Below, piece by piece: positions 16,885 through 59,122 of a stretch of DNA of 64,000 nucleotides. Positions within the stretch are counted from its first letter, which is position 1; every line of letters begins with the position of its first letter. Origin of the DNA: Antedon bifida (Eukaryota > Echinodermata > Crinoidea > Comatulida > Antedonidae); assembly GCA_963402885.1 (NCBI GenBank), contig OY727095.1:4035001-4099000 (forward strand). Direction: 5' to 3'. The translations under genes were made by a program, and so were the position numbers. The notes under the pieces were generated by a model. It was not told where the DNA came from. It worked only from the letters and a program-made list of their open reading frames with translations, and did no database searches.

Positions 16885-19800
16885 TCATGGTATTGTGATG
16901 TTTCTTGGATGAAACTTGATTGGTTCGTTATCGGTCATTATGTGATCTTTGGCCGTAGAGGTCGCTGCAGCATTTTTAACTTGTATGACACGCGTATCCA
17001 TTACCTCACAATCTATTTGCATCATGGACATGTGATCCATCATATGATCATCCACTGTTGAATCTACAGATATACATGTGTTTAAATAATAGAATAATAA
17101 TAATATACAAACATTATACGTTAAAAATGAGATAAATAACAACACTTACCATTCAATCTTAGGGCTGGCATAAGCACAGATATTTTGGGTCTTCCAGTGT
17201 TGTTATGTTGAAGTGCTGGTAGTAACAGATGATCCTATAATATAATCGCATCAAATTAATTAAAGTTAGGAATAGGGTCTTTTTATGGTGTGCACTTGCA
17301 AAGTCAGGTTTGGAGTTTTTCCCCCAGCCTAATTGTTGGTAGAATGTAATTAAAAATTGAGAACTTTATTATTAGGAAACTAATCATCTAATGGACTGTA
17401 AATGTATATCTTTGAGATTAAGTTCAATCACAGTTCTAAATGTCAAATGTTGTCTCTGAATCAGGTCAACGCTGTCAAGAGTTTTCAAAACCTTTACTTG
17501 CCAAAGACACATATTATTTAAAACGTTTTTTAATCAGTAAATGGGAATTAATTGACAACTTACTCTTCTAAAGGACACGACATAATACGTGTCGTTTTTC
17601 CTGTCGAGAGCATCCAGGAGATTCGCGTAGCGCCTGTCAAAGAGGCTGTCGTACAGCTGCAGGCCACGCTCATCTATGTTCTCCATTTGAGAAGTCATTT
17701 TACGGGCCATGTCACGCTTTCTTCTCTTCAGAGATTTCTTTAAATAATTAAATATTATAAATGTGTATACAATTTTTTATATCAAAAATGGTAAACTTTA
17801 TGTTACAAAAAAAATGTGATGTGCCCATATATGGACATGATGATGTCATATCACTACCATATTTGGGCATATCACTACCATATTTAGGCACATCACACCT
17901 TTTTGATAGTGTAGACAGAGCTTTATACAGTGTTGATTACACACCAGGTGAACATTTACATTTAATATCATAATCATAAAAAGTTACATTACAAGTTACA
18001 AATGTTATTACAAATTATTTTAGAAAATAAATGTAATACTTACAGATTTTTTACTTTTCTGTGCACTTTTCTTTTTTTCTTGTTCGTGACCAAACACCCA
18101 ACCTTTTAATTTATCTGCTAACCTAAACAAATTAACATACAATAATTGAAATATATTAGATATTGCAAATTATTAGTACACTAATTTCTTTTAAATTTGG
18201 ATAAAATGAATTTAATTGAAGGTTTTTTGACTAAAATTCTTTTATTATATAACATATATCACAAACAATTTTTTTCCCTTGGCCTAGTGTTTGACATCCA
18301 TTTCGAAATGGAAGCAACCAATTTTGTTCATTCAACCATTACAGATATGCTATAGAAAAAATCCATAGTTTTGTTATTCGTTAAATGGACAGGATATTTT
18401 CAACTCATAAAAATATTCGCCCCATTTATTATTTGTTATTTTTTTTAACTTCTTATTTCATAAGAGGAAATAGAGTTAATTGGAATTACTAATAAAGATA
18501 CATACCTCAACACTTCTGTAGAATTAAATGGACATGATGGATGAGCCTTAGACATCGGATAATTACTCATATCATTTAACAACATAAGCTGGTTGCGTTC
18601 CTCTTGTGTGAATGTGACATCCATTATGTCTTGGTCGCTAGAGGTGTTGTATAAGGATGTAGTGTTTTCATTAAAAGATAGTAAATTTCTACTGTTGTGA
18701 ACGGTTTTGATATATTGCGGTGCTGCATGCTGCGTATTGAAAACACTGAAATGAATAAACAAATATTAAATACATTAAAAAGGTGAGCAGTGGGTGGGGT
18801 TTCAAACTGGCATATCTGATTGGATAAACAGATCAGGGATCATATCTCACTATGTAAAGCTTTGTCTACACTATTATTAGTTTGACAAAAAAGGTGTGAT
18901 GTGCCCAAATATGGTAGTGATATGACATCATCATGCCATATATATGGGCACATCACATTCTTGTGTCACATAAAGTTTGATAGTCTCTATGTAACTTATA
19001 GCTCTATGCAACTTATAGCTCTATTACCTTATAGCTCTATGCAACTTATAGCTCTATTACCTTATAGCTCTATGTAACTTATAGCTCTATGCAACTTACA
19101 GCTCTATGAACATATACTGTAGCTCTATGCAACTTATAGCTCTATGCAACTTATAGCTCTATGCAACATATAGCTCTATGCAACATATAGCTCTATACAA
19201 CATATAGCTCTATACAACATATAGCTCTATACAACTTATAGCTCTATACAACTTATAGCTCTATACAACTTATAGCTCTATACAACTTATAGTTCTATAC
19301 AACTTATAGTTCTATACAACTTATAGCTCTATGCAACTTATAGCTCTATGCAACTTATAGCTCTATGCAACTTATAGCTCTATACAACTTATAGTTCTAT
19401 ACAACTTATAGTTCTATACAACTTATAGTTCTATACAGCTTATAGCTCTATACAGCTTATAGCTCTATACAACTTATAGCTCTATACAACTTATAGCTCT
19501 ATACAACTTATAGCTCTATACAGCTTATAGTTCTATACAACATATAGCTCTATACAACTTATTGTTCTATACAACTTATAGCTCTATACAACTTATTGTT
19601 CTATACAACTTATTGTTCTATACAACTTATAGTTCTATACCGCTTATAGTTCTATACAGCTTATAGCTCTATACAACTTATAGCTCTATACAACTTATAG
19701 TTCTACAGTATACAACTTATAGTTCTATACAACTTATAGCTCTATACAACTTATAGCTCTATACAACTTATAGCTCTATACAGCTTATAGTTCTATACAA

Positions 19801-22800
19801 CATATAGCTCTATACAACTTATTGTTCTATACAACTTATAGCTCTATACAACTTATTGTTCTATACAACTTATAGTTCTATACAGCTTATAGCTCTATAC
19901 AACTTATAGCTCTATACAACTTATAGCTCTATACAACTTATAGCTCTATACAGCTTATTGTTCTATACAACTTATAGCTCTATACAACTTATTGTTCTAT
20001 ACAACTTATAGCTCTATACAACTTATTGTTCTATACAACTTATAGTTCTATACAACTTATTGTTCTATACAACTTATAGCTCTATACAACTTATTGTTCT
20101 ATACAACTTATAGCTCTATACAACTTATTGTTCTATACAACATATAGCTCTATACAACTTATTGTTCTATACAACTTATAGTTCTATACAGCTTATAGTT
20201 CTATACAACTTATAGCTCTATACAACTTATAGTTCTACAGTATACAACTTATAGTTCTATACAACTTATAGTTCTATACAACATATAGCTCTATACAACT
20301 TATAGTTCTATACAACATATAGCTCTATACAACTTATAGTTGTATACAACTTATAGCTCTATACAACTTATAGCTCTATGTGACTTATAACTCTATGAAA
20401 CTTATAGCTCCATGGAATGCATGAGCATTAGTACATTTGTTCATTTTTGGTATTGGAGTATCAAAATGACCACAATGGTGATGAAAGGTTTGGATCCAAA
20501 ATGACATCCCCTGCCCTGGGGTGGGTTTCTTCACTAGAAGCTCTCTAAAATCTATGCAATAGACTAAGGTACACACAATATTAAACCAATTTGCAATTTG
20601 AAAATTAACTTTATCATACCTTAATGGGGCTACGTTGAAACCGATAATAAACACTACAGCTAACAAACATGTGGCAGTTTTAGTCGTTGAGGGCAGCATT
20701 GATCGCATCTTGGACAAAGTATCATACTGAAAAAGAAAACCATTAATATCAAAATGTAAACAGGATGAAAAAAAAAATGTAGACAGGACCAACAGCCTAA
20801 TTATTCTTCCAAAGGTTGAGGCAACTTAACTAGAATAAGTCAGATATCATAGAATACTTACGTCGTGTCTTAATGCTTCTAACTGTTGTTTAAGTGATAA
20901 ATTCTCTCTTCTAAGTTCATCATTCTCTTCTTGAATGTCATGTATCTGTACTTCTAAATTTGTTAAATACTGCGGAAAAAAATATAAATACTGACGTTAT
21001 TTAATGCTATTTTTCATCTAGTTCTAGTGGAATTTGCATTGGTTCAAGAATTCACAGAACATGTTTTGTTTATTTGTGGTTGTAGTTGAAATAAGTTTTC
21101 TCTTAGCATTTATAAAAAATGTTATTACAAAATTCCTTGTAAATTAAATACACTTATTAAATGGACGCTATCATGACATCAATGTGTCCTCTAATTAGAG
21201 ATGTTCTTTTTAGGGATTTGTGTTAAAAGTGCAAATGATTACCTCTTTTTTCTTTTTCCTAGACAAACAAGCAGATTCTCTATTTTTAATCATTCTTTGT
21301 TGTCTTTTCCATATCCGCACCTGAAAATAAAGCAAAGTTGCAAATTAGCAAATTATGAAGTGAAACATTAACTGACAATTGTACTAGATATAAGAAAATG
21401 TTATAAATAATAATCTCTTTATTGTCAACAAAACAAAAATAATTTACAAATGGTTATAAGGTATAGATAGCTAATCAAAGCTTATCACAATCTAAATATA
21501 CAAACTTATCTACTAACATGATTTCTTGAATAAAAAAGTTACAAGTAGAGAAAAATAGTAATACAACATCCAAAATGTGAAATACTTACATCTACGTCGG
21601 GGGGACAAGTAGGTTCCGTAACTACTGGGGCTAAAACAGGTTTTGGAACATTGATATTACTCAGTCTAGCTTGTTTCGTTGGCGGAGCTTCAGATGAAGT
21701 AATCACCGAAGTTGTGCTTAATGGTTTCACGTTGGAGGGTGCCAGAACAATACGTTGATTGGCAACTGAAAATTGAAAAAATAAAAGTCATAATATGGAT
21801 ATCATATACTTCATAATAGTTCAGGGGCAATAAAGGTCTTAAGCTAGGTCTTAGACTTAAGCCCAAGATAAAACCCTTACCAACGACGGTCTTAGATTTA
21901 GTACCATCGTTGCCAAGGGTAGGTTGCCAATATTTTTAATTATTTGTTAAAAATCTCCTAATAGTTATGTAATGAATAGGCAATGTGTCCATTAATGCAT
22001 AAAAATGGCCTCAACATGTCCTACTATAGAGATAGTTCACTATACTATATCTATGGTCCTACTGAGGAGGTAACTATAAGCTTGTTTGAAATTCTTTACT
22101 ATTAAGGTCTCAAATAAGACCACAATATTACAATAGGCTTAACTGAGCTTTCTCAAGGTCTTAGATTAAAGCCAGGCTTAGGTCTTTATATTGCAATCCA
22201 CCCCTGGTTGGGAGAACCAAGCATCCACTTAATAGCACTGACAAAACATAATATATTGTCCCTCATTTCATTCACAAGTGTCCAACTATAACCAAAAACA
22301 GAAATTCATACCTGATATTGGAGTGACCTTCATGTTATTAGCTGTTGATACCGTCACTATATTTGGATCAGTCTTGGGAATTATAACCTGACGTATTGTC
22401 TGCGGCCTTGGTAGTATGCGCTTCCCATTCTTCAGCCTCACTGGCTGCCCGACTATCACCTCATTTACTACGCTCACTCCGTTAACGGTTGGAACAAAGT
22501 TTGGACCAGTAGGGGCGATAAGCGGTGTCATGTCATCTTGCGGGGGGCTCAGAGGGGGTGTTTCTATCTTTAAATCTATATGTGCACATGTTGGACTTGA
22601 AATACTCTGGGAAAAAAAATTGCGAACATTTAGTGATAATTTGTAAATTTCAATAGAACAGTCTTATAAATTACTGTACTAAGCTTTTGATGGTCTAAAT
22701 TAACATTACAAACTATATGCTTATATAATAGTAATTATAAAATGCTAGATATCCTCCCTCTCCATCCTACTCCGAGTGGTTTTGAACTGTACAATACTTG

Positions 22801-33779: not shown

Positions 33780-36700
33780 ATTAAAAGCAAATAGAGCAAA
33801 AGAAAAGTCACAAAGTAGCCAGCAAAGAAATCAGTTTAAAAGCCAACAAAGCAAAAGAAAAGTCACAACGTAGCCAGCAAAGAAATCATTTTGCAAATGA
33901 AGCAAAAGAGAAGTCACAAAGTAGCCAGCAAAGAATTCATTTTGCAAATGAAGCAAAAGAGAAGTCACAACGTAGCCAGCAAAGAAATCATTTTGCAAAT
34001 GAACCAAAAGAGAAGTCACAAAGTAGCCAGCAAAGAAATCATTTTGCAAATGAAGCAAAAGAGAAGTCACAACGTAGCCAGCAAAGAAATCAGTTTGCAA
34101 ATGAATCAAAAGAAAAGTCACAAAGTAGCCAGCAAAGAAATCATTTTGCAAATGAATCAAAAGAAAAGTCACAACGTAGCCAGCAAAGAAATCATTTTGC
34201 AAATGAACCAAAAGAGAAGTCACAAAGTAGCCAGCAAAGAAATCATTTTGCAAATGAATCAAAAGAAAAGTCACAAAGTAGCCAGCAAAGAAATCATTTT
34301 GCAAATGAAGCAAAAGAGAAGTCACAACGTAGCCAGCAAAGAAATCAGTTAAAAGCAAATAGAGCAAAAGAAACGGGAAGTAGCCATAGAAAATATTAAC
34401 AGAGAAATTATAAGAATGTAATAAAAAATAAATAAAACCAAAACACAATAAGTGAATGAACCATGAAGTAATATGTACAAGGAAATGTAGACACAAATAA
34501 CTGTGCTCCAGGCCCGCTGATAGTTTTCTCAGTAATACTCCCGGAAATTCGGATGTTGCGGTGAGTGAAGGGCTAATACTAGTTAAAAACAATTAGTGGA
34601 GACAAGTACATAATGTAGGCCTACCCATTTAGTCGCATGAGACATAGCACGGTTGTACAGTATAGCCTTGTTATCAACTCCAGTAATGAAGTGGGTTTTT
34701 GTTTTCAATGTATCCAAATCTAGTATAACTTGCTTTCTGGCATAATTTGGACTCATCTGGCATCGAAGGCTAAAAAGTCTGCCATAATTCTTTGACTGTT
34801 TATGTTAAATTAAGGGGAATAAATTCAAAATCAGAACATATTAAGTTATTCATATCAATTACTGGGGAAAAAATGACCATTACATTTTTTTATATGGGAA
34901 ATGCTCTAAAATTTAGCGATTTACCATCTAAAGCATACGTTTTTCATTGTTTTTTTTTAACCCGTTGGTCACATTGATTATGTTTGTGTAATATAAAGAT
35001 GTGCCATACTAAACACAGGGCATGTCATTTGTACTACGATGCGTGTTTTGTCAAGTTGGGAGTTCGTGATAGAGTGAAGGAGGATAATTTTTCAAAAATA
35101 AACTTTATTTGAGTTTATTTTATGCACCAGATGGAACGGTGAGCTAAAAGGCTAGCTAATCCTGGAAAACCCCCTATACCTAGCTGCTAAAACCATTGAG
35201 CAACCAGCTTAGTTACAGGTTCGATGAGCCTTCAAAGTAGCCAGCAAAGAAATCAGTTTAAAAGCCAACAAAGCAAAAGAAAAGTCACAATGTGCCAGCA
35301 AAGAAATCATTTTGCAAATAAAGCAAAAGAAAAGTCACAAGGTAGCCAGCAAAGAAATCAGTTTGCAAATAAAGCAAAAGAAAAGTCACAACGTAGCCAG
35401 CAAAGAAATCAATTTGCAAATAAAGCAAAAGAAAAGTCACAATGTAGCCAGGAAAGAAATCATTTTGCAAATGAACCAAAAGAGAAGTCACAACGTAGCC
35501 AGCAAAGAAATCATTTTGCAAATGAACCAAAAGAGAAGTCACAAAGTAGCCAGCAAAGAAATCATTTTGCAAATGAACCAAAAGAGAAGTCACAACGTAG
35601 CCAGCAAAGAAATCATTTTGCAAATGAACCAAAAGAGAAGTCACAACGTAGCCAGCAAAGAAATCATTTTGCAAATAAAGCAAAAGAAAAGTCACAATGT
35701 AGCCAGCAAAGAAATCATTTTGCAAATGAAGCAAAAGAGAAGTCACAACGTAGCCAGCAAAGAAATCAGTTAAAAGCAAATAGAGCAAAAGAAACGGGAA
35801 GTAGCCATAGAAAATATTAACAGAGAAATTATAAGAATGTAATAAAAAATAAATAAAACCAAAACACAATAAGTGAATGAACCATGAAGTAATATGTACA
35901 AGGAAATGTAGACACAAATAACTGTGCTCCAGGCCCGCTGATAGTTTTCTCAGTAATACTCCCGGAAATTCGGATGTTGCGGTGAGTGAAGGGCTAATAC
36001 TAGTTAAAAACAATTAGTGGAGACAAGTACATAATGTAGGCCTACCCATTTAGTCGCATGAGACATAGCACGGTTGTACAGTATAGCCTTGTTATCAACT
36101 CCAGTAATGAAGTGGGTTTTTGTTTTCAATGTATCCAAATCTAGTATAACTTGCTTTCTGGCATAATTTGGACTCATCTGGCATCGAAGGCTAAAAAGTC
36201 TGCCATAATTCTTTGACTGTTTATGTTAAATTAAGGGGAATAAATTCAAAATCAGAACATATTAAGTTATTCATATCAATTACTGGGGAAAAAATGACCA
36301 TTACATTTTTTTATATGGGAAATGCTCTAAAATTTAGCGATTTACCATCTAAAGCATACGTTTTTCATTGTTTTTTTTTAACCCGTTGGTCACATTGATT
36401 ATGTTTGTGTAATATAAAGATGTGCCATACTAAACACAGGGCATGTCATTTGTACTACGATGCGTGTTTTGTCAAGTTGGGAGTTCGTGATAGAGTGAAG
36501 GAGGATCATTTTTCAAAAATAAACTTTATTTGAGTTTATTTTATGCACCAGATGGAACGGTGAGCTAAAAGGCTAGCTAATCCTGGAAAACCCCCTATAC
36601 CTAGCTGCTAAAACCATTGAGCAACCAGCTTAGTTACAGGTTCGATGAGCCTTCAAAGTAGCCAGCAAAGAAATCAGTTTAAAAGCCAACAAAGCAAAAG

Positions 36701-38095
36701 AAAAGTCACAATGTGCCAGCAAAGAAATCATTTTGCAAATAAAGCAAAAGAAAAGTCACAAGGTAGCCAGCAAAGAAATCAGTTTGCAAATAAAGCAAAA
36801 GAAAAGTCACAACGTAGCCAGCAAAGAAATCAATTTGCAAATAAAGCAAAAGAAAAGTCACAATGTAGCCAGGAAAGAAATCATTTTGCAAATGAACCAA
36901 AAGAGAAGTCACAACGTAGCCAGCAAAGAAATCATTTTGCAAATAAAGCAAAAGAAAAGTCACAATGTAGCCAGGAAAGAAATCATTTTGCAAATGAACC
37001 AAAAGAGAAGTCACAACGTAGCCAGCAAAGAAATCATTTTGCAAATAAAGCAAAAGAAAAGTCACAATGTAGCCAGCAAAGAAATCATTTTGCAAATAAA
37101 GCAAAAGAAAAGTCACAATGTAGCCAGCAAAGAAATCAGTTTGCAAATAAAGCAAAAGAAAAGTCACAATGTAGCCAGCAAAGAAATCAGTTTAAAGCAA
37201 ATAGAGCAAAAGAAACGTGAAGTAGCCATAGAAAATATTAACAGAGAAATTATAAGAATGTAATAAAAAATAAATAAAACCAAAACACAATAAGTGAATG
37301 AACCATGAAGTAATATGTACAAGGAAATGTAGACACAAATAATTAACTGTGCTCCAGGCCCGCTGATAGTTTTCTCAGTAATACTCCCGGAAATTCGGAT
37401 GTTGCGGTGAGGGAAGGGCTAATACTAGTTAAAAACAATTGTGGAGACAAGTACATAATGTAGGCCTACCCATTTAGTCGCATGAGACATAGCACGGTTG
37501 TACAGTATAGCCTTGTTATCAACTCCAGTAATGAAGTGGGTTTTTGTTTTCAATGTATCCAAATCTAGTATAACTTGCTTTCTGGCATAATTTGGACTCA
37601 TCTGGCATCGAAGGCTAAAAAGTCTGCCATAATTCTTTGACTGTTTATGTTAAATTAAGGGGAATAAATTCAAAATCAGAACATATTAGTTATTCATATC
37701 AATTACTGGGGAAAAAATGACCATTACATTTTTTTATATGGGAAATGCTCTAAAATTTTGCGATTTACCATCTAAAGCATACGTTTTTCATTTGTTTTTT
37801 TTAACCCGTTGGTCACATTGATTATGCTTGTGTAATATAAAGATGTGCCATACTAAACACAGGGCATGTCATTTGTACTACGATGCGTGTTTTGTCAAGT
37901 TGGGAGTTCGTGATAGAGTGAAGGAGGATAATTTTTCAAAAATAAACTTTATTTGTATTTTGAGTTTATTTTATGCACCAGATGGAACGGTGAGCTAAAA
38001 GGCTAGCTAATCCTGGAAAACCCCCTATACCTAGCTGCTAAAACCGTTGAGCAACCAGCTTAGTTACAGGTTCGATGAGCCTTCAAACTATATCA
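33780..38095. repeat. Triplicated 1.42-kb unit: 51-bp minisatellite plus about 0.85 kb of unique sequence
   Basis: Three tandem units: arrays at about 33790-34370, 35233-35810 and 36655-37215, each followed by the same block (CTGTGCTCCAGGCCCGCTG ... GGTTCGATGAGCCTTCAAA). Units 1 and 2 match at an exact 1421-bp offset in the non-array part. Unit 3 has more small indels. The array unit AGCCAGCAAAGAAATCA, TTTTGCAAATGAA, CAAAAGAGAAGTCACAACGT is 51 bp (17 codons), so several frames stay open: plus-strand QQRNHFANEPKEKSQRS and KEIILQMNQKRSHNVAS, minus-strand NDFFAGYVVTSLLVHLQ. I treat these as by-products of the period, because no splice, homology or single-frame bias supports a gene. Confidence 0.93.
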
Positions 38096-38614: not shown

Positions 38615-38645
38615 CCTAACCCTAACCCCTAACCCTAACCCTAAC
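38615..38645. repeat. Interstitial telomere-type repeat (CCCTAA)n
   Basis: About five units of CCTAAC/CCCTAA (one with an extra C) lie just inside the intron of peptide gene 1. This is the animal telomere repeat, in a short internal tract. Confidence 0.85.
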
Positions 38646-40474: not shown

Positions 40475-40854
40475 TTTCTTGCGCGTAACAGAAAGGGGAG
40501 TGGAAACTAACATGGAATTTAAATTGATAGGTTTAAATATTATTTCAGTTACAAACTACTACATACTATTATACGCGCGCTCGTTTGAATCTGTGGATTA
40601 TCCCACAATGCTCCTTACGTACTTATGCGTTTTATCACCAGAGATGATGACGTCACTACTTGACATTCAATGAAAATGTACTCAACCTAATTATCATTAT
40701 TTATTAAAAATCTACACAATTTGTTTGGGTTATGATCATTCAGGAACTTTTGTTCATGGTATTATGTGTTTTGACGAAGTATAAAAGTACAAGTCTATTA
40801 GAAGGCACCGTGCCACACATTTAACTAATACTATAGTTTTTTTCTTACAGAACT

Positions 40855-41199
40855 ATGTCGTCGTTCCAATTGATACTTATGATAGTTTGCGTCGTCGCCA
40901 TCGCAAATATTGACGCTAGTGCCATAAATCGGCTCCTGAGGAAAAATCAATCTCAAAAACATTTAGCAAACGTTCAACGCCAGATCTTTAATCTCTCACC
41001 AGCAACGAGCAGTGATTTCCAGCAGACAAACAGTCACAACGAAGAAAGTCCAGAACAATATTCTCAGTACACCTATTCAAGTTCCTTTCCTAACAAACGT
41101 TTTAAGAGAGATGACGGCGAAGAAGACGCGCTCCTAAGAGCCTTGGATGAACTCCATCAAAAGTTACAATTGCCAGGTCTACATCGCTTCTTTTCTTAG
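40855..41199 (+). CDS. Secreted peptide precursor, paralogue 1 (114 aa)
   Basis: The product is not recognised. One coding exon follows the acceptor ending at 40850. Residues 1-23 form a signal peptide (hydrophobic QLILMIVCVVAIA, then DASA). Next are INRLLRK, a Gln/Asn-rich spacer, an acidic Tyr-rich block (HNEESPEQYSQYTY, 61-74), paired basic sites NKRFKR (80-85), and a 29-residue C-terminal peptide DDGEEDALLRALDELHQK (86-103) plus LQLPGLHRFFS. The C-terminal peptide should form an amphipathic helix. The layout is that of a neuropeptide or hormone precursor; no cysteines follow the signal peptide. A close paralogue lies 5.5 kb downstream in the same orientation. AATAAA signals are at 41275 and 41564-41573. 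The helix recalls CRH/PTH-like ligands only in general shape, so no family is claimed. Confidence 0.8.
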   Translation: MSSFQLILMIVCVVAIANIDASAINRLLRKNQSQKHLANVQRQIFNLSPATSSDFQQTNSHNEESPEQYSQYTYSSSFPNKRFKRDDGEEDALLRALDELHQKLQLPGLHRFFS

Positions 41200-41579
41200 A
41201 ACTTTTAGAACGACTTGTCTCTGGCCTAGCCTTCTATTCGGCATTGGTTCAAGATGGAATCGGCGAATTAATTTAATAAAAGTCAATCAAGCTCATTAAA
41301 GAAACTCGTACAACAAGCTCATGAAAAAATTCGTATATTGTAATTACTATAATAATAGTTTTGTTTGTTTATGTACTAATTATATATATGCCTAATATAG
41401 ATAATTTTCAAATGATATAAGCTAAAAGAAGAATGTTTAGTTTATGGTTGATAATTAATTATATTTAATTAATTAATTGATTTCATTATCATTAACTTCA
41501 TATTAATCATATTGAATGCTACATTGTTTTAATGTTCAAAACTCTTATTTCAAAACGTATGTTAATAAATAAAATAGTT

Positions 41580-42280
41580 GTTTAGAACACGTTCTATTTT
41601 TCTATTCTTTTTACTGTATATTTTAAATAGAAGTTATCTGTGAAATGTCCACTATAATATCTCTATGCTTGAACAGAATCAACAATTTCTAATCCAACAA
41701 TCTGGAACACGTCGCGTCTGGAGATGTATTTATGTGGCACACAATTAAAAAAAATGTTCAAATTCCCATTGCCAAATTAATTATACTGCCCTCAATTTTT
41801 CGTTTCCCTGGTTTTACAGAACGATCATCATCAGACGTCCACCAATCCTAATCTCGAAATATGGAGCAAATAAAATAATTAAATAAAATTAAATAATGCA
41901 AGTTAAGATCGGCTTGATTAATACAAAAAAATGCAAAAAATAATAAAGAAACAATAAGTCAACAATTAAAACAAAAATGGTAATTCTTACGCAGTTAAGT
42001 AGTTTGGGAACGGCAGGTAAATTGATTTGTCTGGAATTTTACTGAACAAACAGTTGGGAGAATTGAAGCGAAGTGTTTAAAAATGAACATAAAATAAATT
42101 TAAGACATCTGTTAAAAAGTTGATACCCAATCGGAAAGCAGAACAACAAAGTATCTGAGCAGGCGATTACGTCACTGCTTATGGCACTAAATTTAGTTCC
42201 TATTATTCTATAAGAATTTACTGATTTTCTCTACTTTCTTTTTGGTATTTAGTGAGACAGAAAAGAAACTTAAAAATATG
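41580..42280. other. Intergenic, distal part shared with the 3' flank of peptide gene 2
   Basis: 41527-41620 (TTAATGTTCAAAACT ... GTTAATAAATAAAATAG) resembles 47680-47770. CTGGAACACGTCGCGTCTGG at 41701 resembles CTGGAACACGTCACGTGTGG at 47892. The gene duplication therefore took at least 500 bases of 3' flank with it. The rest shows no gene. Confidence 0.6.
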
Positions 42281-42628
42281 TCCGGATAGCAATTTTTTTC
42301 GTATATAAGTTGGGGACCACTTTGAGAAAGATAGCCGAACTAATTCCTAACATAACTAAACCTAAATAATCTGTCACATTAAATTTAAAAATAAAAAAAA
42401 AGAAACTGCTCGTGAATTCGAACCCCGTAAATCGCCATACAAATTCCAGAGCCTAATCCGTTACGACTACAAAGACGGCTCGAGAAAAAACATTTGCATT
42501 AGCAAATTGTAGTTAGCTCAATTCTTACGTCACACTTTATGGATATGAATAATGAATATTCATGTGTATTTTGTGACGTTTCACGAGGGGTCCCCAACTT
42601 ATGTACGAAAAGAAATATCGCGTCCGGA
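42281..42628. mobile_element. Inverted-repeat element (TCCGGA ... GTTGGGGACC ends), 348 bp
   Basis: The left TCCGGATAGCAATTTTTTT then CGTATATAAGTTGGGGACC, and the right GGTCCCCAACTTATGTACG then AAAAGAAATATCGCGTCCGGA, are inverted over about 40 bp. A one-ended remnant of the same family lies at 53908-53952. The interior holds a tRNA-like segment on the minus strand. Confidence 0.8.
42405..42480 (-). mobile_element. tRNA-like (SINE-type) segment inside the inverted-repeat element
   Basis: The minus strand reads GAGCCGTCTTTGTAGTCGTA, ACGGATTAGGCTCTGGAAT, TTGTATGGCGATTTAC, then GGGGTTCGAATTCACGAG. There is a good B box (GGTTCGAATTC) and a plausible A box (TAGTCGTAACGG) at tRNA spacing. The acceptor-stem pairing is poor, so a functional tRNA is unlikely. 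Confidence 0.45.
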
Positions 42629-42937
42629 TATTACGTTGCGTTTGGTCGATATATTACTTCCTACCATTATTTACGGTTAACAAAAACAAACGCCGTGTTG
42701 TTGAGCAGATTTACGTAATCAAATTATTAGTCTTCTGAAGTATATTCTTCATTAAACCACAGTTATTACGTGTTTCTTTCTTATTTCAAGGATTCACCTG
42801 TTATTAAAACAAATATTTTTGTGTTTATTTACGTCACAAAACAAACGACTATCCTGAGTGACTAAAAGGCAGTTTGCTTAATTAATTAAGGACAGATTAT
42901 ACGTATTTTAAAATATTTGTTTTAAGTAGTTGTTTTG

Positions 42938-43090
42938 TTACCTCCGCCAAGGAGTCATGTTTTCACCTCTGTATGTTGGTCTGAACAGCCTAGAGGCCAT
43001 TTTTATTCGATTTTTGCCAAACTTGTCCACAGTGATCCATGTAACAGCATAGAGGTATTAGTAATTTGTTTTGTTTAAAAGACCATCGGC
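42938..43090. repeat. Dispersed repeat beginning TTACCTCCGCCAAGGAG
   Basis: The words ACCTCCGCCAAGGAG, GTTTTCACCTCTGTATG and GATTTTTGCCAAACTTG are, from memory, a phrase common to a widespread marine-invertebrate repeat. One copy only here; class unknown. Confidence 0.45.
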
Positions 43091-43196
43091 AGAATTTGAA
43101 CCAGGTTTTTAATCATGGAAACCTACATTCATTCATACAATTACACATTATTGAAAACAAAGTAGAAGTCAACTGTAGGAGTTTGGTTTGTTTTAA

Positions 43197-43306
43197 TTAG
43201 TCCACCAGTCGACATTTCGATTGTTGTCTAGATTCCGAGATCAAGTATTATACATATGAAACGCCATGTGTGCCAACATATTTATATTTTTACTAATATT
43301 AAGTTG
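43197..43306 (+). repeat. Dispersed repeat, copy 2 (first copy at 7979)
   Basis: TTAGTCCACCAGTCGACATT through ATGAAACGCCATGTGTGCCA to TTTTACTAATATT, matching 7979-8077 in the same orientation. Confidence 0.7.
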
Positions 43307-44549
43307 AAATACCTAGAATATCCTGCTCAAAAGTAACAATACATTACATACATAAAATGATCTACATAACGAAAGTATTAGGAGACGCATATATCTTATA
43401 TTATTTGTATTCTCATATATTATACTATATTAGGTACTGTATATATATTATATTGATTTATAATTATAATCTTATCACATGACTTTAAGATGACCAAATT
43501 CAAATGACATCACCATCGTCTTTACGATGACGTTGGACTGTAGAAATAATTTCCTTATATAGATTTATGACATATGCAAGTGAGCATAGGCCAGTGACCA
43601 AACATGTTCAGTTTTTTAAAAAGAAAATGTATTTACAGTAAGTGTATTGTTTTTTAATGTTGTTAAATCGAAAAATGTCTGTCTTTATTTCATTTCCACG
43701 AATGTGGGATGAGATTCCGGTACATAAAATACAATAATGTGCTTGTCTTTCCTTTCCGAGTTTGTGTTTTGTCCTTTCCGATGTAGTACTAGTCTTTACC
43801 GCGTTTGTGCTGGTCCTTTCCGATGTTACAAATTGGCTTGTTCTTTCACAGTAATGTTGTGCTGGTCATATCCCGATGAGTGCCTGTTATTTCGATGTTT
43901 ATGCTAGTATTTTCCGAAGATATGCATGTCTCTTCATAGGGCCAACTTATACGTTGTCTTTTCTGCCACTAACGGCCGCCCATACTAAACCGAAATGTGA
44001 TGTTTAATGGTACAGCATTTTGCTTAATTGATTCGCATTTCGAAAACCAACATGTAGTGTGCGTCCAAATAATAAAATTGAAATCGCGTGATTGACGCGT
44101 AAGAATGACATATGCTTCCTTACGGGTTCTCAGTTGAAATCCGCCATCCAATTGTGCAGTGGGTCTATTTTCCATGTACACATCTAATAACTTTGGGATA
44201 GTTTAACTATATGCCTACATCTTATAGGCGTATATCAACAGTATAATCATTATTTTCATTAAAAAAAATTATCAATATTTTTATTATTTACAATTATATT
44301 TTTATCTAAAAACTCGTATCGGAATAAAAAACAAACTGTTATCACAGAATTTTGTAATACAATTTTTTTCTAATAATAGTCAAATTCAATCGAGATAACA
44401 TTAACTGTTTATAAAATGTCATAAATAAAAACACAAACATTGAATAAATATCAGTTTCTGAACAAACTGCCGAAGATTCTCAGCATGTTGTTAAATTACT
44501 CATAGCTAGGAAGTGACAATTTGCGCATGCGTATTAGATGATATGATGA
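43307..44549. other. Upstream flank of peptide gene 2
   Basis: No gene. 43740-43925 contains a loose, degenerate repetition of TCCTTTCCGATGT / GTCTTTCCGAG words. The rest is AT-rich sequence leading to the TATA box at 44550. Confidence 0.45.
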
Positions 44550-44557
44550 TATAAAAG
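44550..44557 (+). promoter_or_regulatory. TATA box of peptide gene 2
   Basis: TATAAAAG in ATGATGATATAAAAGCATGC, about 30 bases before the inferred non-coding exon 1. A good consensus match. Confidence 0.65.
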
Positions 44558-44579
44558 CATGCTTGTGGAACTGGAAAAC

Positions 44580-44770
44580 ATCAGTGGCAAGTTGACTGTT
44601 GACTATCTCAGTGAAAGGTTGAGCAGAGAATTTGAAAGACAAACTTGAGTGAAATAGTTGGACAACCTTCGTGAAACATTTTGTTTTTTTCGATTGAATA
44701 GAGAAAGAAGGGAGATCAAGACTCCGCATTGTGGTAGATATTTTACGTAGATTACGGGACTAAAAAACAG
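44580..44770 (+). other. Non-coding exon 1 of peptide gene 2 (inferred)
   Basis: About 190 bases from the expected start to the donor AAAAACAG|GTAAAT. It splices to the acceptor TTTTCTTACAG ending at 46332, which has the same context as in gene 1. The first exon is only weakly similar to that of gene 1. Confidence 0.5.
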
Positions 44771-45146
44771 GTAAATATCAAATAATTTTTACGCAAAATG
44801 TCGTAGTTTTTTATATAATTAAAGATATTGGATAGTGTTTGTCGTAAAATACCAAATTGACATGAATAGTGAAAATTGCAATTTAATCAGCGTAACGGAA
44901 TTAGGCTTGTTAAACGCATTCAGAACGCGATTAGATCGCTATTGCGTTTGCAAGCAAGCGTATCAAATAATGTGTGTATTGCCATGATTACTAATGATCA
45001 TAAAGATGGAAATCGATCGACGATGTTAGTGAAATACAACGTAAATATTATACGGTTGCATTAATTAAACTATAAATCATTATTATTATTATTAAAAGAT
45101 GTCAGTTCTTGGAAAACAATTACGGGTTTCTATAAGTGAATTGTGT

Positions 45147-45388
45147 AGTAGAGCCCCTCATTTCGGACACATGTGAAACAAAAAAGGCCTTTTTTAAACA
45201 CTTACAGCCAACCCATTTTCAGTGGAACCCTTAAGCCCTGTCTACACTATCAAACTATGTGACAGAAAAATGTGATGTGCCCATATATGGACATGATGAT
45301 GTCATCAATACCATATTTAAGCATATCACTCCCATATTTAAGCATATCACTACCATATTTGGGAACATCACACTTTTTTTAGAGCTTT
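45147..45388. mobile_element. Family-3 fragment followed by a family-2 element, in the intron of peptide gene 2
   Basis: GTAGAGCCCCTCATTTCGGA ... CAGTGGAACCC (about 45147-45231) resembles family 3. It abuts a family-2 copy, TTAAGCCCTGTCTACACTAT to CACTTTTTTTAGAGCTTTA (45232-45388), with an internal duplication of the ATATCACTCCCATATTT part. Confidence 0.72.
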
Positions 45389-45395
45389 ATTCAAT

Positions 45396-45733
45396 TAAAG
45401 ATGTATTGTCCCCCAAAAACATGAAAAATGAAGATTAATAAAATCAGACTTTGAATAGGCCATTTTGTAGTTTTAAGAAAGTTAATCACTTCCGTAGAAA
45501 ATAAAACCCGAAAAAATAATGTTTTCATTTATAAAATGAAAAAATAAATGGTTAAATTCAACCAAAACTTTATTGGCTGGCAGCCAATTTGTCTAGTTTT
45601 TTGCTTTAAATTACAGATTTTTCAAGTAAATAATTTTTGTTCTAAGTGAATAACTATTATGTGACATTAAAATGTCATACTCAACAAAAAAATGTAAAAA
45701 AAAAATTTTTTTCTGGGGGACAATACATCTTTA
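45396..45733. mobile_element. MITE with AAAGATGTATTGTCCCCCA inverted ends, 338 bp
   Basis: Left AAAGATGTATTGTCCCCCA; right TGGGGGACAATACATCTTT, a near-perfect inverted pair of about 19 bp with TA on both outer sides. AT-rich, no coding. TA flanks suggest a Tc1/mariner-type target. It lies next to the right end of the family-2 copy, in the intron of peptide gene 2. Confidence 0.88.
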
Positions 45734-46336
45734 CACTATTATCAAGAGGACACTTTGTTTAGGTCCTCGTTTATAGAGAATTTAATATATATTATTTTCA
45801 CTTTTATTATGAAAGTTGTTTCGAATTTTGTATTCGCCACGTTTAACACTCTATTTAAAAGATACAACATTTGGTTTATTAACCAATTAAGTTTTATTTC
45901 AAAATCTATCAGATAAACAAGATTCGAAATTTAATTGAAACAACTTCATCTGTGATTTCTAACATAGCGTTATTGACAGTACAGAAATAAAAGCTAACGA
46001 AAATTGGTACTATTTTTTCGACATTTGTACGCACATACAAGTGTACGCGCATACAATTGTACGCGCGCGTGTGTGCATCTTGATTATTGACGTTTTTATT
46101 TTAATTATTCTTGTTTGCTTTGAAAGAATAAGGCGTTTTGCTGCGTTTTATCAGAAAGAAAATGTGTTTCACTCTACATGACATCCAATGAAAATGTCCC
46201 TTTTGCCATATTATTCATAAAAAATGTTCTGTATTTTCTATGTTTTCCAAAAAAAACCCCTACAAAACAGCACCAGTCTATAAGGCGTCGCACTTACCAT
46301 AAATTGAACCTTATTGTTATTTTTTCTTACAGAACT

Positions 46337-46717
46337 ATGTCGTCGCTCCAATTGATACTTATGATAGTCTGCATCGTCGCCATCGCAAGTATTGATGCTG
46401 GTACACTTAATCGGCTCCTGAGGCGAAAACAATATCAACCAAATTTAGCAAACAACTTCGAACGTCAAATCTTTAATGAGAATCTCTCACCAACGAACAA
46501 TGATTTCCAGCAGACAAACAGTCACAACGAAGAAAGTCCAGAACAATATTCTCAGTACACCTATTTAAGTTCCTATCCTAGCAAACGCCCTAAGAGAAAT
46601 GGTCGTCCAAGCGTAGCAGAGCGACGTTCATCCCCTGTAGAAGACTCGCTCCGAAGAGCCTTGGATGAACTCTATCAAAAGTTAGAATTGCCAGGTTTAC
46701 GAGTAGGTAGAAAATGA
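46337..46717 (+). CDS. Secreted peptide precursor, paralogue 2 (126 aa, amidation signal)
   Basis: Start chosen at 46337, four bases after the acceptor, as in paralogue 1; the longer open frame from 46178 runs through the intron. Residues 1-22 are a signal peptide (QLILMIVCIVAIA). Then come LNRLLRRK, a spacer, the block QQTNSHNEESPEQYSQYTY (part of 21 residues identical to paralogue 1), SKRPKR (82-87), and NGRPSVAERRSSPVEDSLRR plus ALDELYQKLELPGLRV, closed by GRK at 124-126. GRK is a classic cleavage-plus-amidation end, so the mature peptide would end LRV-amide; RR at 96-97 could give a shorter form. Paralogue 1 lacks this Gly. Probable poly(A) signal AATAAA at 47715-47720. Neuroendocrine, epithelial or host-defence roles are all possible. 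Confidence 0.82.
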   Translation: MSSLQLILMIVCIVAIASIDAGTLNRLLRRKQYQPNLANNFERQIFNENLSPTNNDFQQTNSHNEESPEQYSQYTYLSSYPSKRPKRNGRPSVAERRSSPVEDSLRRALDELYQKLELPGLRVGRK

Positions 46718-47769
46718 ACTTCGTGGAATACACGGCAAAACAGATCGTTCCAGCGTGCCTTCGTTGACCTTCCTTACAGCCACTTGGACCCTGATGACGC
46801 ACCGAGCTTATTGACATTTTCATATTATTTAAACAAAAGTTAGGCCTAACTAAGATAATGGAGAACACGTCGTTATCAGTTGATATAACTTGTAAATTCA
46901 CAGATCTGTTTAAATGTATTTATTTTTACAATAGTAGTAAATAATTTAGTTTATTTTAAAAAGTGCAATATTTTAATATTAAAACACGATTTATTTAGAT
47001 CACGATTTGCCAAATCACCCTAGCTTGTAAAATATACATTAAAGGGGCGTTACACCGACTTACTGTTTAACACAATTATTTAAGAGAATGTAACTATTTC
47101 GTCAGCAGAAGCATCGAAGTTCAATACTTCGTTGTAAAAGAATACGATTAATTATTGAAGTAATGTAGTATTGTTCTAACATTCTAAGGCATTGACGCAT
47201 CTTCCTGCGTTATCACATATTGTTATAATACTAGTGTATCCAAGACTATCTGATTAATTCTGATTGGTTCTTTTTCTAACATTTTGTAAACATGTTTGGA
47301 CCAACGCGAGACTGCCGTTCGAAAGCCAAACTGTGCGCCGTCTATACTGTTGTACACGCGTACAAAATCCGAGCGTTGCTTTTTTTAACGGCAGCTTTAT
47401 TTGTTTAAAAGTTAACCATAAAAATATTATCTCTATTCAACTCATAGAAATGTATAATTTTGTATATTAAATAGCTTTTGTTTTTACATCTGAAGTAAAT
47501 ATATATAATTCAATTTTCGATAAGGACTAACTATATTATTTACGGGGGAAAAATGTTTAAAATGATGAATACCAAAACAAAGATTATTTGTAGTTAGTGG
47601 CAACAAATTCAGGGTTATTAATTAATATTGATTTAATTGACTTAGTTACACTTACCTTAATGAATGTTACATGTTTGTTTTAATGTTCAAAACTGTTATT
47701 TCAAAACTTATGTAAATAAATACAAAAGTTGTTAATATTTGTTCTATTTTCATTCTTTTCACTGTATTA

Positions 47770-49996
47770 AAAAAAAACCTTTCTGTGAAATGTAACAAAA
47801 GATACTATTTTTTACGGCGAATGAACTCTCCAAGGATGGAACCTACACCTTTTCGCGCGTATAATACACCAGACGTGTTGGTAATCCACAAACCTGGAAC
47901 ACGTCACGTGTGGATGTTTCGCAGTTGTTTACTATTAATTTCATCAAAATCACCAAAAATGTGATAACGAAAAAAAAAAGATAATACTTATATTATAACA
48001 CCATTCGGATGCGATGTTAACTCGTTGGCTATGATGGGCGTAGGTGTTCGAAAAACATGACAACCTGTTGTGTACATCGTCTTGCTTGATTCGCGCTAGG
48101 AATCAACAGCAACAGCTTTCGATATTGATTTTAGATTGATTAATTGATTGATTGAATGGAATGGATATTTCATTCTATATTCAACCCATAAACATTCATT
48201 ATTTATTTTAACGTATCATAGTGTTATTCATAATGGCACAGAATTGAAAGTAAAGTTGGAATTACAGAAATGAGTAAATTAATCTATTTAATCTATTTAA
48301 ATTCCTCAATTTATTTTACGATTACAAATTGACGCCTTACTGGACAAATTATAGGTAGAAATTATTCACAACTAAGCGACGTTTTTGTTCCGGTAGATCC
48401 GTGTTTTAAATTTATATTGTTTATTATAATATATAAACATAACATTTCAACAACATATATTACAATTCCACTTATTTTCCGACAATGGTGAAGTAAGTAG
48501 TAAAATAAGTCCCCCTTTAAAAAGTTTTTTAGTGTTAAAAGAATTTCACCAAAACTGACTTCCATTTATATAAATTTGAGATTTTTTTGTTTTGTTTTTT
48601 TTTTTTGTTACATGGGAAAATACTACATATATCTAGAAATTGTTGTCCAGTACGATTGTAAATTTAAAAATCTTGTCTTAATAAAATTACAAAAAAAAAA
48701 TCAGAGATGTAATCAAATAAATCTTTACATTTACCGAAAAACTGTTGATAGGTTTTCTATTCTGAACGGTAGCCGGGTCAAGTCGGCCGGTCGTAAACTT
48801 TATCGGCCTCTGTCTACTCGACCCTCGCATCCACTCGGCCCCGGGTAAACTCGGCCTTTCATCAGTAAATGTAAATTGGCACACTAAACTGTTTGAACAT
48901 TATTATGTAAATTATGTATTTAAACATACATTACATTTCTGTCTATGTTAAATGTCAATATAACCCTGGACGGTTTAGAGTTTCTCTTTCTGTTTAAAAT
49001 TTACATATCTATAAATAAGAGAGAGTTGTACGTTTTGTTCGTTATCGTTGCCACAGCACGCATCGAAATTGTACTGAGAATGTTTTAAATTACATTTGAA
49101 ACCCGACCTGGGGTGGGTATCCTTGCTAGCTATGTTTAATTAAGTTATAATTATTCAATAAAAGGTTCCCAAAAAAAAAGAAAACAAACAACAATTCTAT
49201 GGCATATAATATACGGCTTGTCTAAAATACAACAAAAAAACACAAGTAAAGGGAAATATTATTGTCAATTCTCAATTGTGGTTTTATTTGCACATTCAAC
49301 AATACTATATAGGCCTATAGATTTATGAAGCGCTTTTCCAAAAAATACCAAAGCGCTGAAATAGTGTTAGCCTAAAAACTTTAAAACACCCACATTTCCA
49401 CCCACCTTTACAATTATTATTTGAACCTTGACAGGAATTATAGTATTTTTAGGCCTTATTATTAGATCACTATGACATTTAATAATGTTGCAATTATGAG
49501 TTCATTTTTTCTACATGTTTTACAGCTCAACGTTTAGTGATCGATTGATCGTTTGTACATTATACAATATTACTACTATGCATCCATACATCAAAATGCC
49601 CGCAATTTTATTGGGAATGCCGATATGAAGTTTGAACATTATCCGCCATCTTGGATCCAATATAGCGGCCAAAATAGAGGTCTAAATACCTACTGTTGCG
49701 TATTAGGGAGATGGGTTACGAGGTATCAAAATGACCAGAATTTAGGCACTGTGAAAGTTTTCCAATACATTTGAAACGCACCCGGAGTCGATTAGGCCGT
49801 CGCTAACAAATTGGCAACAATTATGAACATTCCATTCCGAATAACGCAACCAGTCTGCGAAATAATAAACCTTGCCAGAAATTCGTGCTGCTTATAGGAA
49901 AGTTGAATAGTTTTTATTTTTAATATTAATAATAATAATTCAAGCTTTATACTAAAACCTCAATGTGGTTAACAGTAAAACCATTGCTGGCTTAAA
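47770..49996. other. Intergenic DNA without a gene
   Basis: Contains the duplicated CTGGAACACGTCACGTG word at 47892. A GATTGATT run is near 48130. 48766-48858 has a loosely repeated CTCGGCC/GTAAACT phrase. A minus-strand SINE/LINE tail-like AAGCGCTTTTCC/AAAGCGCT fragment is at about 49320-49366. No frame here encodes a recognisable protein. Confidence 0.5.
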
Positions 49997-50632
49997 CAAG
50001 GCCATACATGGCTGCAGTCGCGTGCGCAAATGTGAGTTAGTGTTTACCGACCGACCGACCGACCAACCGACCGACATAGTGAGCTATAGAGAATAAAAAT
50101 AGCAATTAAAGTTCCCGGATGGATAGATATTTAATGTAATTTTATTGTACAGTATATGTCAATCTTTTGATGTACACATTTGCAGTAATTTACTCAAATT
50201 TTAATGTGGTTGTGTTATTTTTCTCTCTCTCGTCGTTCTACTCATATCTGAGTACTCGTGACCATTCGGATGAGGTGTCTCCATTCTTGCCGATCTTGAG
50301 CTTCATTGTAGCTACTGATTATTGGTCGGTTTGCAGCACCACTTATACCATCAATCCATTTGAGTCTCTGTCTTCCTCTTTTTCGTTTCCCATCAACTTT
50401 CCCAAACATAATCATTTTCTCCATACTATCTCCATCCCGTCTGGCAATATGTCCAAAGTATTGTAGTTTTTGTTTGATAATAGATTCAATTAATGTGCCT
50501 TTCTTGCCTATTTCGCATATATTTTTAGTCGCGTTCAAACGCGAGTTCACAGCTCACTATGTCGGTCGGTTGGTCGTTGGTCGGTAAACACTAACATTTG
50601 AGCACGCGACTGCAGCCATGTATATGGTCTTG
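49997..50632. mobile_element. Element with about 85-bp inverted ends enclosing a LINE coding fragment
   Basis: Left 49997-50087 (CAAGGCCATACATGGCTGC, AGTCGCGTGCGCAAATG, TGTTTACCGACCGACCGACC, ACATAGTGAGCT) and right 50551-50632 (its inverse with few changes) form long inverted repeats. Both contain GACC tetramer runs. About 460 bp lies between them, most of it the minus-strand LINE fragment. A composite non-autonomous element, or a LINE tail captured between two halves of a foldback element, are both possible. Confidence 0.8.
50242..50550 (-). pseudogene. Non-LTR retrotransposon (LINE) reverse-transcriptase C-terminal fragment
   Basis: The minus strand encodes KQKLQYFGHIARRDGD, KMIMFGKVDGKRKRGRQR, LKWIDGISG and AQDRQEWRHLI. 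This is the familiar C-terminal tail of LINE endonuclease/reverse-transcriptase proteins (FGH..RRDG, GKR.RGRQR..W.D.I, DR..WR). Only about 95 residues remain; the catalytic domain is absent. The frame is still open to its natural-looking end, so the fragment is fairly young. It lies wholly between the inverted repeats of the enclosing element. Confidence 0.85.
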
Positions 50633-58973: not shown

Positions 58974-59122
58974 TAAGCTTTGTCTACACTATCAAACTTT
59001 ATGTGACAAAAAAATGTAATGTGCCCATATATGGACATTGGTGATGTCATATCACTACCATATTTGAGCATATCACTACCATATTTGGTCACAAACTAGT
59101 TTTGTAGTGTAGACAGAGCTTA
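58974..59122. mobile_element. Family-2 inverted-repeat element, intact
   Basis: AAGCTTTGTCTACACTATCA ... GTAGTGTAGACAGAGCTT, about 149 bp, TA on both sides. It contains GTAATGTGCCCATATATGG and a doubled ATATCACTACCATATTTG. Confidence 0.88.

Follow-up and report, generated by a model that had tools for sequence, protein, structure and literature searches.

Tandem paralogous genes for predicted secreted peptide precursors in the crinoid Antedon bifida

Two similar open reading frames follow one another on the forward strand of a contig of the crinoid Antedon bifida, and the question they raise is what kind of product they encode. The window (the whole 64-kb stretch of DNA that was analyzed) does contain both frames proposed by the first-pass annotation: p1 at 40855-41199, with 114 amino acids ending in LPGLHRFFS-stop and no glycine or amidation site, and p2 at 46337-46717, with 126 amino acids ending in LPGLRV-GRK-stop, for which amidation is predicted. 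All features described below are on this same strand. That the two are tandem paralogues was borne out at both levels, as the DNA agrees at 306 of 384 positions (E 2e-99) and the proteins at 66.4% over 122 columns (E 6e-43). The gaps between the copies at the DNA level (2+1, 6, 3 and 16+14) add up, in each local group, to a multiple of three, and on the sequence the net reading frame is retained. When random substitutions were simulated, a p2-like frame stayed open in 50% of the cases with 15 changes, 38% with 21 and 16% with 42. The stop-free frames in both copies are therefore only supportive. Over 108 codon pairs dN/dS was about 0.77 (0.134/0.173), indicating that the whole protein is weakly constrained. 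Towards the C-terminus dN exceeded dS, both in the longer segment, p2 residues 99-122 (0.193 and 0.137, 23 codon pairs), and in residues 77-97 (0.244 and 0.154). A tblastn search at E values up to 10 found no third paralogue in the window; the other matches printed for p1 and p2 had E values of 0.13 or worse, and minisatellite open reading frames were among them.

The features expected of a secreted precursor, as first described, held up with one reservation. Both N-termini are hydrophobic, with a maximal Kyte-Doolittle value over 12 residues of 3.5 in p2 (starting at residue 6) and 3.475 in p1, and AlphaFold predicts a helix over residues 3-17; the signal peptide is assigned on this hydropathy and helix rather than by a dedicated predictor. 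The acidic, Tyr-rich block is 21 residues long and identical in the two proteins, and is enclosed in a stretch of 65 nucleotides that is itself identical (41013-41077 and 46501-46565). Paired basic sites are located at residues 29, 30, 83, 86, 96, 106 and 125 of p2 and 29, 81 and 84 of p1, flanking the conserved peptide, and the motif RALDEL.QKL.LPGL is common to the copies. The only Cys falls within the signal peptide, leaving the pro-region Cys-free. The reservation concerns the amphipathic character of the C-terminal peptide. Outside the signal, the 11-residue helix moment does peak there, but that value was reached in 17.9% and 17.6% of 2000 composition-shuffled sequences and is not above chance. 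AlphaFold places a helix at p2 residues 100-116 with modest confidence (pLDDT of 69 and 61 in its blocks, mean of 57.5 for the whole protein), followed by an unstructured tail.

From the dibasic sites, the predicted mature peptide of p2 is SSPVEDSLRRALDELYQKLELPGLRV (46628-46705, 26 residues, containing the predicted helix), or 16 residues if the inner RR is cut, and the predicted C-terminal peptide of p1 is DDGEEDALLRALDELHQKLQLPGLHRFFS (41110-41196, 29 residues, non-amidated). The tails diverge after LPGL, and as originally noted the C-terminal Gly with basic residues required for amidation is found in p2 alone, p1 ending in HRFFS. The GRK-stop is a rare ending here: among the 8381 stops counted over all six frames of the window, G[KR][KR]-stop occurs at 10, that of p2 included. 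Other origins for the p1 tail were tried and rejected. A fuzzy search for a further p1 exon carrying a GRK tail, with starts from 41101 to 44500, matched at best 15 of 21 bases. Between 41201 and 44500, none of three frames contains a G[KR][KR]-stop preceded by six residues. A micro-inversion gave p 0.33. A splice within the coding exon at CAG|GTYTAC, immediately ahead of the tails, was judged by eye rather than computed; it is disfavoured by the GRK-stop of p2 and by the weak donor.

We consider that p1 and p2 are probably regulatory-peptide precursors, with a probability of about three in four judging from these sequence features, and the secreted, prohormone-type pair of the first-pass annotation is to this extent well supported. 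Signal peptidase would remove the N-terminus and prohormone convertases would cleave at KR/RR; in p2 a carboxypeptidase would then take off RK and the amidating enzyme would convert the Gly, releasing SSPVEDSLRRALDELYQKLELPGLRV-NH2 or ALDELYQKLELPGLRV-NH2. From p1 a non-amidated cousin would be obtained. The C-terminal peptide would be a helix ending at Leu-Pro followed by a tail, and would most likely signal through a G-protein-coupled receptor, perhaps of the secretin (B1) class given its long-helix form. Long helical peptides of the CRH/ELH and secretin/PTH types are ligands of class B1 receptors, but they differ from p1 and p2 in length and motifs. In peptide-similarity shuffle tests (38 comparisons in all, p values before correction) CRH, ELH, DH31, secretin, VIP, glucagon and PTH gave p values of 0.13-0.83 with p2 and 0.07-0.93 with p1. 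If expressed, the pair would represent an additional family of orphan peptides in an animal genome. With a common core and different tails, the two copies would also be a natural test of the need for amidation in receptor activation.

The family itself had been left unplaced, and our profile search agrees: neither the whole proteins nor the C-terminal fragments matched a Pfam family at the cut-off. No homologue outside the window was detected in Pfam, PDB or viral contigs; PDB gave chance-level matches only, and in the viral contigs a protein pattern scan returned 11 pattern matches with no relative among them and a dispersed-repeat scan returned 0. Five peptide strings had no printed match in the literature. 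The absence of a Pfam match does not in itself establish a new family, the databases searched being these three. The Pfam family Calc_CGRP_IAPP was hit below the cut-off by p1 alone (residues 4-85, E 0.058), and a calcitonin-type peptide was discarded since the mature peptide lacks the N-terminal Cys pair, the only Cys being in the signal peptide. The gene pair is of an ordinary kind, a duplicated neuropeptide-like precursor, outside any curated family tested.

At somewhat less than even odds, p1 and p2 are lineage-restricted orphan precursors, possibly among the predicted crinoid neuropeptide precursors (PCNPs) already listed without a family, e.g., PCNP11. In the text of PMC9793003, PCNP1-20 are described and only PCNP1 is given relatives in other echinoderms. 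By its description, precursors of the PCNP2-20 set such as PCNP11 resemble p2, with one long amidated peptide close to the C-terminus. That of AmedPCNP11 has 27 residues, is amidated and lies in the C-terminal region (PMC9793003), compared with the 26 predicted in p2, but this likeness is one of published description and not of sequence. The GC content of the window, about 34%, fits the crinoid Anneissia (33.22%) and equally well a sea urchin (33.71%), as given in PMC7351957.

The regions around the coding exons bear on whether both copies work. For p2 the proposed architecture was recovered: a TATA box (TATAAAAG, 44550-44557), a predicted 5' non-coding exon at 44580-44770 (its start assumed about 30 nucleotides past the TATA) ending at the donor CAG|GTAAAT at 44771, and a predicted intron at 44771-46332 with the acceptor TTTTTTCTTACAG, identical in p1. 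This exon contains no ATG, which favours the precursor reading and was equalled by 1.25% of 2000 dinucleotide shuffles and by 4.9% of window stretches of the same length. An intron right before the start codon is also described for echinoderm SALMFamide genes, and is not specific to them (PMC9793003). The same TATA and non-coding exon had been claimed for p1, and this was not confirmed. Nothing else in the window matches the stretch around p2 exon 1 (44481-44850) significantly (the next best hit has E 0.23), and the TATA-like site ahead of p1 (40780-40787, assigned by comparison) is located 70 nucleotides upstream of the splice acceptor, where p2 has its intron. A shared promoter architecture is thus unsupported. 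Lacking an identifiable first exon and an amidation signal, p1 may be in decay, its promoter, leader exon and amidation signal gone, while p2 remains the working precursor, which is compatible with the other readings. The differing tail and the dN/dS near 0.77 point the same way. Against it, the frame of p1 is intact with its gaps summing to multiples of three, the acceptor is conserved and so is the 3' region, where 41465-41648 (AATAAA at 41564 and 41568) is 76% similar to 47618-47793 in p2 (AATAAA at 47715). The site at 40780 could, moreover, drive an unspliced p1 transcript. On balance we lean against decay.

Among known families the nearest lead is PDF/cerebrin, with a resemblance that is only suggestive. 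It appears unlikely that p1 and p2 are divergent precursors of this type, that is, with one amidated C-terminal peptide, a helix followed by a Leu-Pro-x-Leu tail and a putative PDF-type receptor. They share with this type a short precursor, signal peptide, dibasic cut, a peptide that lacks Cys and sits at or near the C-terminus, a D-x-L-Y ... L-P-x-L motif and, in p2, amidation. The scallop cerebrin/PDF-like peptide is NAGTIDSLYNLPDLFAAamide (PMC5996578), and its IDSLY---NLPDL aligns with LDELYQKLELPGL of p2 (TIDSLYN-LPDL-amide against ALDELYQ-KLE-LPGL-amide) with a shuffle p of 0.03, uncorrected and one of the 38 comparisons. However, the alignment requires a three-residue gap, an insertion in p2 ahead of LPxL, p2 ends in LRV and p1 is non-amidated. 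Control peptides did better with p2 (kisspeptin p 0.0018, MCH p 0.022), and galanin gave 0.034 with p1, for which the scallop peptide gave 0.25. For p2 and p1 respectively, Aplysia cerebrin gave 0.08 and 0.15, fly PDF 0.47 and 0.22, and crustacean PDF 0.73 and 0.52. The likeness has no statistical support after correction. Pfam returned no PDF/PDH match with whole proteins or C-terminal fragments. Echinoderm PDF-type precursors, as described for a starfish (PMC4772807) and a sea cucumber (PMC6586643), are close in size (104-133 amino acids, peptides of 29-35 residues), and of the two peptides in each species, one is described as lacking a C-terminal Gly; but they carry two PDF-like peptides (PMC4772807), as against one LPGL peptide in p1 and in p2. 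In favour of this reading, the crinoid family list of PMC9793003 includes no PDF-type precursor and the main text of that paper uses "PDF-type" 0 times. No PDF sequence is given in passages of PMC8557429, PMC7737342 and PMC6188537. Against it, the echinoderm assignments have themselves been questioned (PMC7235175). If the pair were PDF-type, it would be relevant to whether deuterostomes have PDF ligands, which is contested. It is decidedly improbable that p1 and p2 are the missing ligand of a lineage with no listed PDF precursor, about one helical turn longer between D-x-L-Y and L-P-x-L, with duplication having yielded an amidated hormone and a non-amidated counterpart, possibly a modulator or antagonist.

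Precursors of antimicrobial peptides often show tandem duplication, rapid divergence, an acidic pro-block and a C-terminal helix. These traits speak for the host-defence option of the first-pass annotation, but it is very unlikely, with an unexceptional helix moment and the sole Cys in the signal peptide, and a cationic antimicrobial peptide is disfavoured by the net charge of the predicted peptides (-1 for the 26-mer and -1 for the 16-mer of p2, -4 for p1).

Two tandem open frames on the forward strand, p1 (40855-41199, 114 aa) and p2 (46337-46717, 126 aa), are, judging from their sequences, a real and probably functional pair of neuropeptide-like precursors. Both frames are present as the first-pass annotation had proposed, and their paralogy is upheld by the alignments of DNA (306 of 384 aligned positions identical, E 2e-99) and of protein (66.4% identity across 122 columns with E 6e-43; 72% by a separate count). 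Each begins with a hydrophobic N-terminus, MSSxQLILMIVCxVAIA, followed by NRLLR. The pro-region holds an acidic, Tyr-rich block of 21 residues, identical between the copies, and then a KRxKR cluster; the C-terminal part shares ED-x-L-x-RALDEL-x-QKL-x-LPGL. The Tyr-rich block and the RALDEL.QKL.LPGL segment had been noticed at first reading, as had the two endings, which we also read in the frames: past LPGL, p2 finishes with RV-GRK-stop and p1 with HRFFS-stop, lacking Gly. Since G[KR][KR]-stop occurs at only 10 of the 8381 stops in the six frames of the whole window, p2's own counted, the GRK ending is unlikely to be accidental. Of the pair, p2 is complete and p1 perhaps altered or decaying.

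In p2, a leader exon is predicted at 44580-44770 (191 nt), with its start placed by us about 30 nt downstream of a TATA box (44550). This exon has no ATG, a situation found at that length in 1.25% of 2000 dinucleotide shuffles and in 4.9% of window segments of equal length. Its donor is CAG/GTAAAT, the acceptor of exon 2 is TTTTTTCTTACAG, and the start codon follows the first four bases of that exon. In p1, the acceptor plus AACT-ATG has the same bases. The same TATA and non-coding exon had been ascribed to both genes. This is unsupported, because no other part of the window significantly matches the stretch with the p2 leader exon (44481-44850; best remaining hit E 0.23) and the TATA-like site of p1 (40780, 70 nt upstream of its acceptor) falls in the equivalent of the p2 intron. 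That site could drive an unspliced transcript (49 nt, without ATG); alternatively, the p1 leader may be more distant, unrecognisable or lost. Upstream of the genes, only patches of 24, 17 and 31 nt are alignable at E < 0.001. The 3' regions (41465-41648 in p1, 47618-47793 in p2) are 76% identical with AATAAA in each, consistent with a common 3' end.

Overall protein constraint between the copies is weak (dN 0.134, dS 0.173 over 108 codon pairs). By region the pattern is mixed, and the values, being small counts that depend on the alignment, serve as indications and not as tests: the Tyr-rich block (21 codon pairs) has no changes, dN is below dS in RALDEL..PGL (0.059 and 0.111, 15 pairs) and in the signal region (0.064 and 0.156, 21 pairs), and dN exceeds dS in residues 77-97 (0.244 and 0.154, 12 pairs) and in p2 residues 99-122, which make up a longer C-terminal segment (0.193 and 0.137, 23 pairs). 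A stretch of 65 nt is identical (41013-41077 and 46501-46565), which may come from gene conversion or constraint. The gaps between the two DNAs (2+1, 6, 3, 16+14) sum to a multiple of three in each local group, so the reading frame is kept. The intact frames are supportive, not decisive, because under simulated random substitution such an ORF stays open in 50% (15 changes), 38% (21) and 16% (42) of trials.

The kind of gene is already known, a neuropeptide-like precursor, and the searches made place it in no family, in agreement with the first-pass annotation. In Pfam no family reached the curated cut-off with whole p1 and p2 (E up to 10), and none was found with three C-terminal fragments; sub-threshold names were five for p1, the best being DUF4834 (E 0.0026, 19.1 bits vs a cut-off of 27.8), and one for p2. 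The PDB gave chance-level matches only, viral contigs held no relative, and five peptide strings occurred in none of the papers searched. The pair might match one of the family-less predicted crinoid neuropeptide precursors (PCNP1-20) of PMC9793003, if the DNA is crinoid; PCNP11, compared by its description there only, has an amidated peptide of 27 residues in its C-terminal part. Window GC is ~34% (mean over the rows of the composition table), and is equally compatible with the values quoted in PMC7351957, 33.22% for a feather star genome and 33.71% for a sea urchin; the window sequence is AT-rich and looks animal-like.

By eye, the C-termini resemble pigment-dispersing-factor-type (PDF/cerebrin) peptides, such as the scallop NAGTIDSLYNLPDLFAAamide (as given in PMC5996578). 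In a shuffle test of 19 known peptides with both paralogues (38 comparisons; only the scallop sequence was taken from a paper), p2 gave p 0.03 for this peptide, 0.0018 for an unrelated kisspeptin and 0.022 for MCH; for p1 the values were 0.25 with the scallop peptide and 0.034 with galanin. These scores are no evidence for PDF/cerebrin membership. Echinoderm PDF precursors, as described in PMC4772807 and PMC6586643, are alike in size and in having a peptide without C-terminal Gly but, unlike p1 and p2, carry two PDF-like peptides; their family assignment is itself doubted in PMC7235175. PDF-type receptors of a sea cucumber are described as activated by calcitonin-type peptides (PMC12638048), so the identity of the PDF-type ligand in such lineages is of interest.

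Assuming cleavage at RR/KR and then amidation for p2, the predicted peptides are SSPVEDSLRRALDELYQKLELPGLRV-NH2 (26 residues) or, with the inner RR cleaved, the shorter ALDELYQKLELPGLRV-NH2 for p2, and DDGEEDALLRALDELHQKLQLPGLHRFFS (29 residues) for p1. Their negative net charge (-1, -1 and -4) and absence of Cys speak against a defence peptide of the cationic type, disfavouring the defence option raised at first reading. AlphaFold, with a two-sequence alignment, predicted a helix (100-116) and then an unstructured tail at low overall confidence (mean pLDDT 57.5, pTM 0.20). For the amphipathic C-terminal peptide initially described, the helical moment is no higher than that of shuffled sequence, so "amphipathic" is a descriptive label only.

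Elsewhere in the window, the ORF at 3223-3720 has its match in polyamine-transporting ATPase 13A2 (E 1e-27), and near it a 210-bp unit is repeated three times (4227-4860, 94% match), possibly containing an exon, since 210 is divisible by three. Minus-strand ORFs at 16.9-23.9 kb presumably resemble the ER stress factor ATF6; six of them gave no Pfam family at E 0.01, and among them lies a 17-bp tandem repeat of ~83 copies (18980-20410). A minus-strand ORF at 50245-50553 is by eye like the C-terminus of the polymerase of a non-LTR retrotransposon and had no Pfam match at E 0.01. Dispersed 21-bp repeats with ATCACTACCATATTT (45303-45371, 17847-17896, 59048-59087) may sit inside related mobile elements. 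For the copy at 45.2 kb, one of the flanking motifs was looked for in viral contigs and found nowhere in exact form. A large nested satellite with periods of 89, 195, 284 and 480 bp occupies 9285-14275. At 33787-38090, a ~1.42-kb unit occurs three times, with copies 98-100% alike outside the array; the long ORFs of its 51-bp minisatellite arrays look like artefacts of the repeats. A short interstitial, telomere-like CCTAAC repeat lies at 38615-38645.
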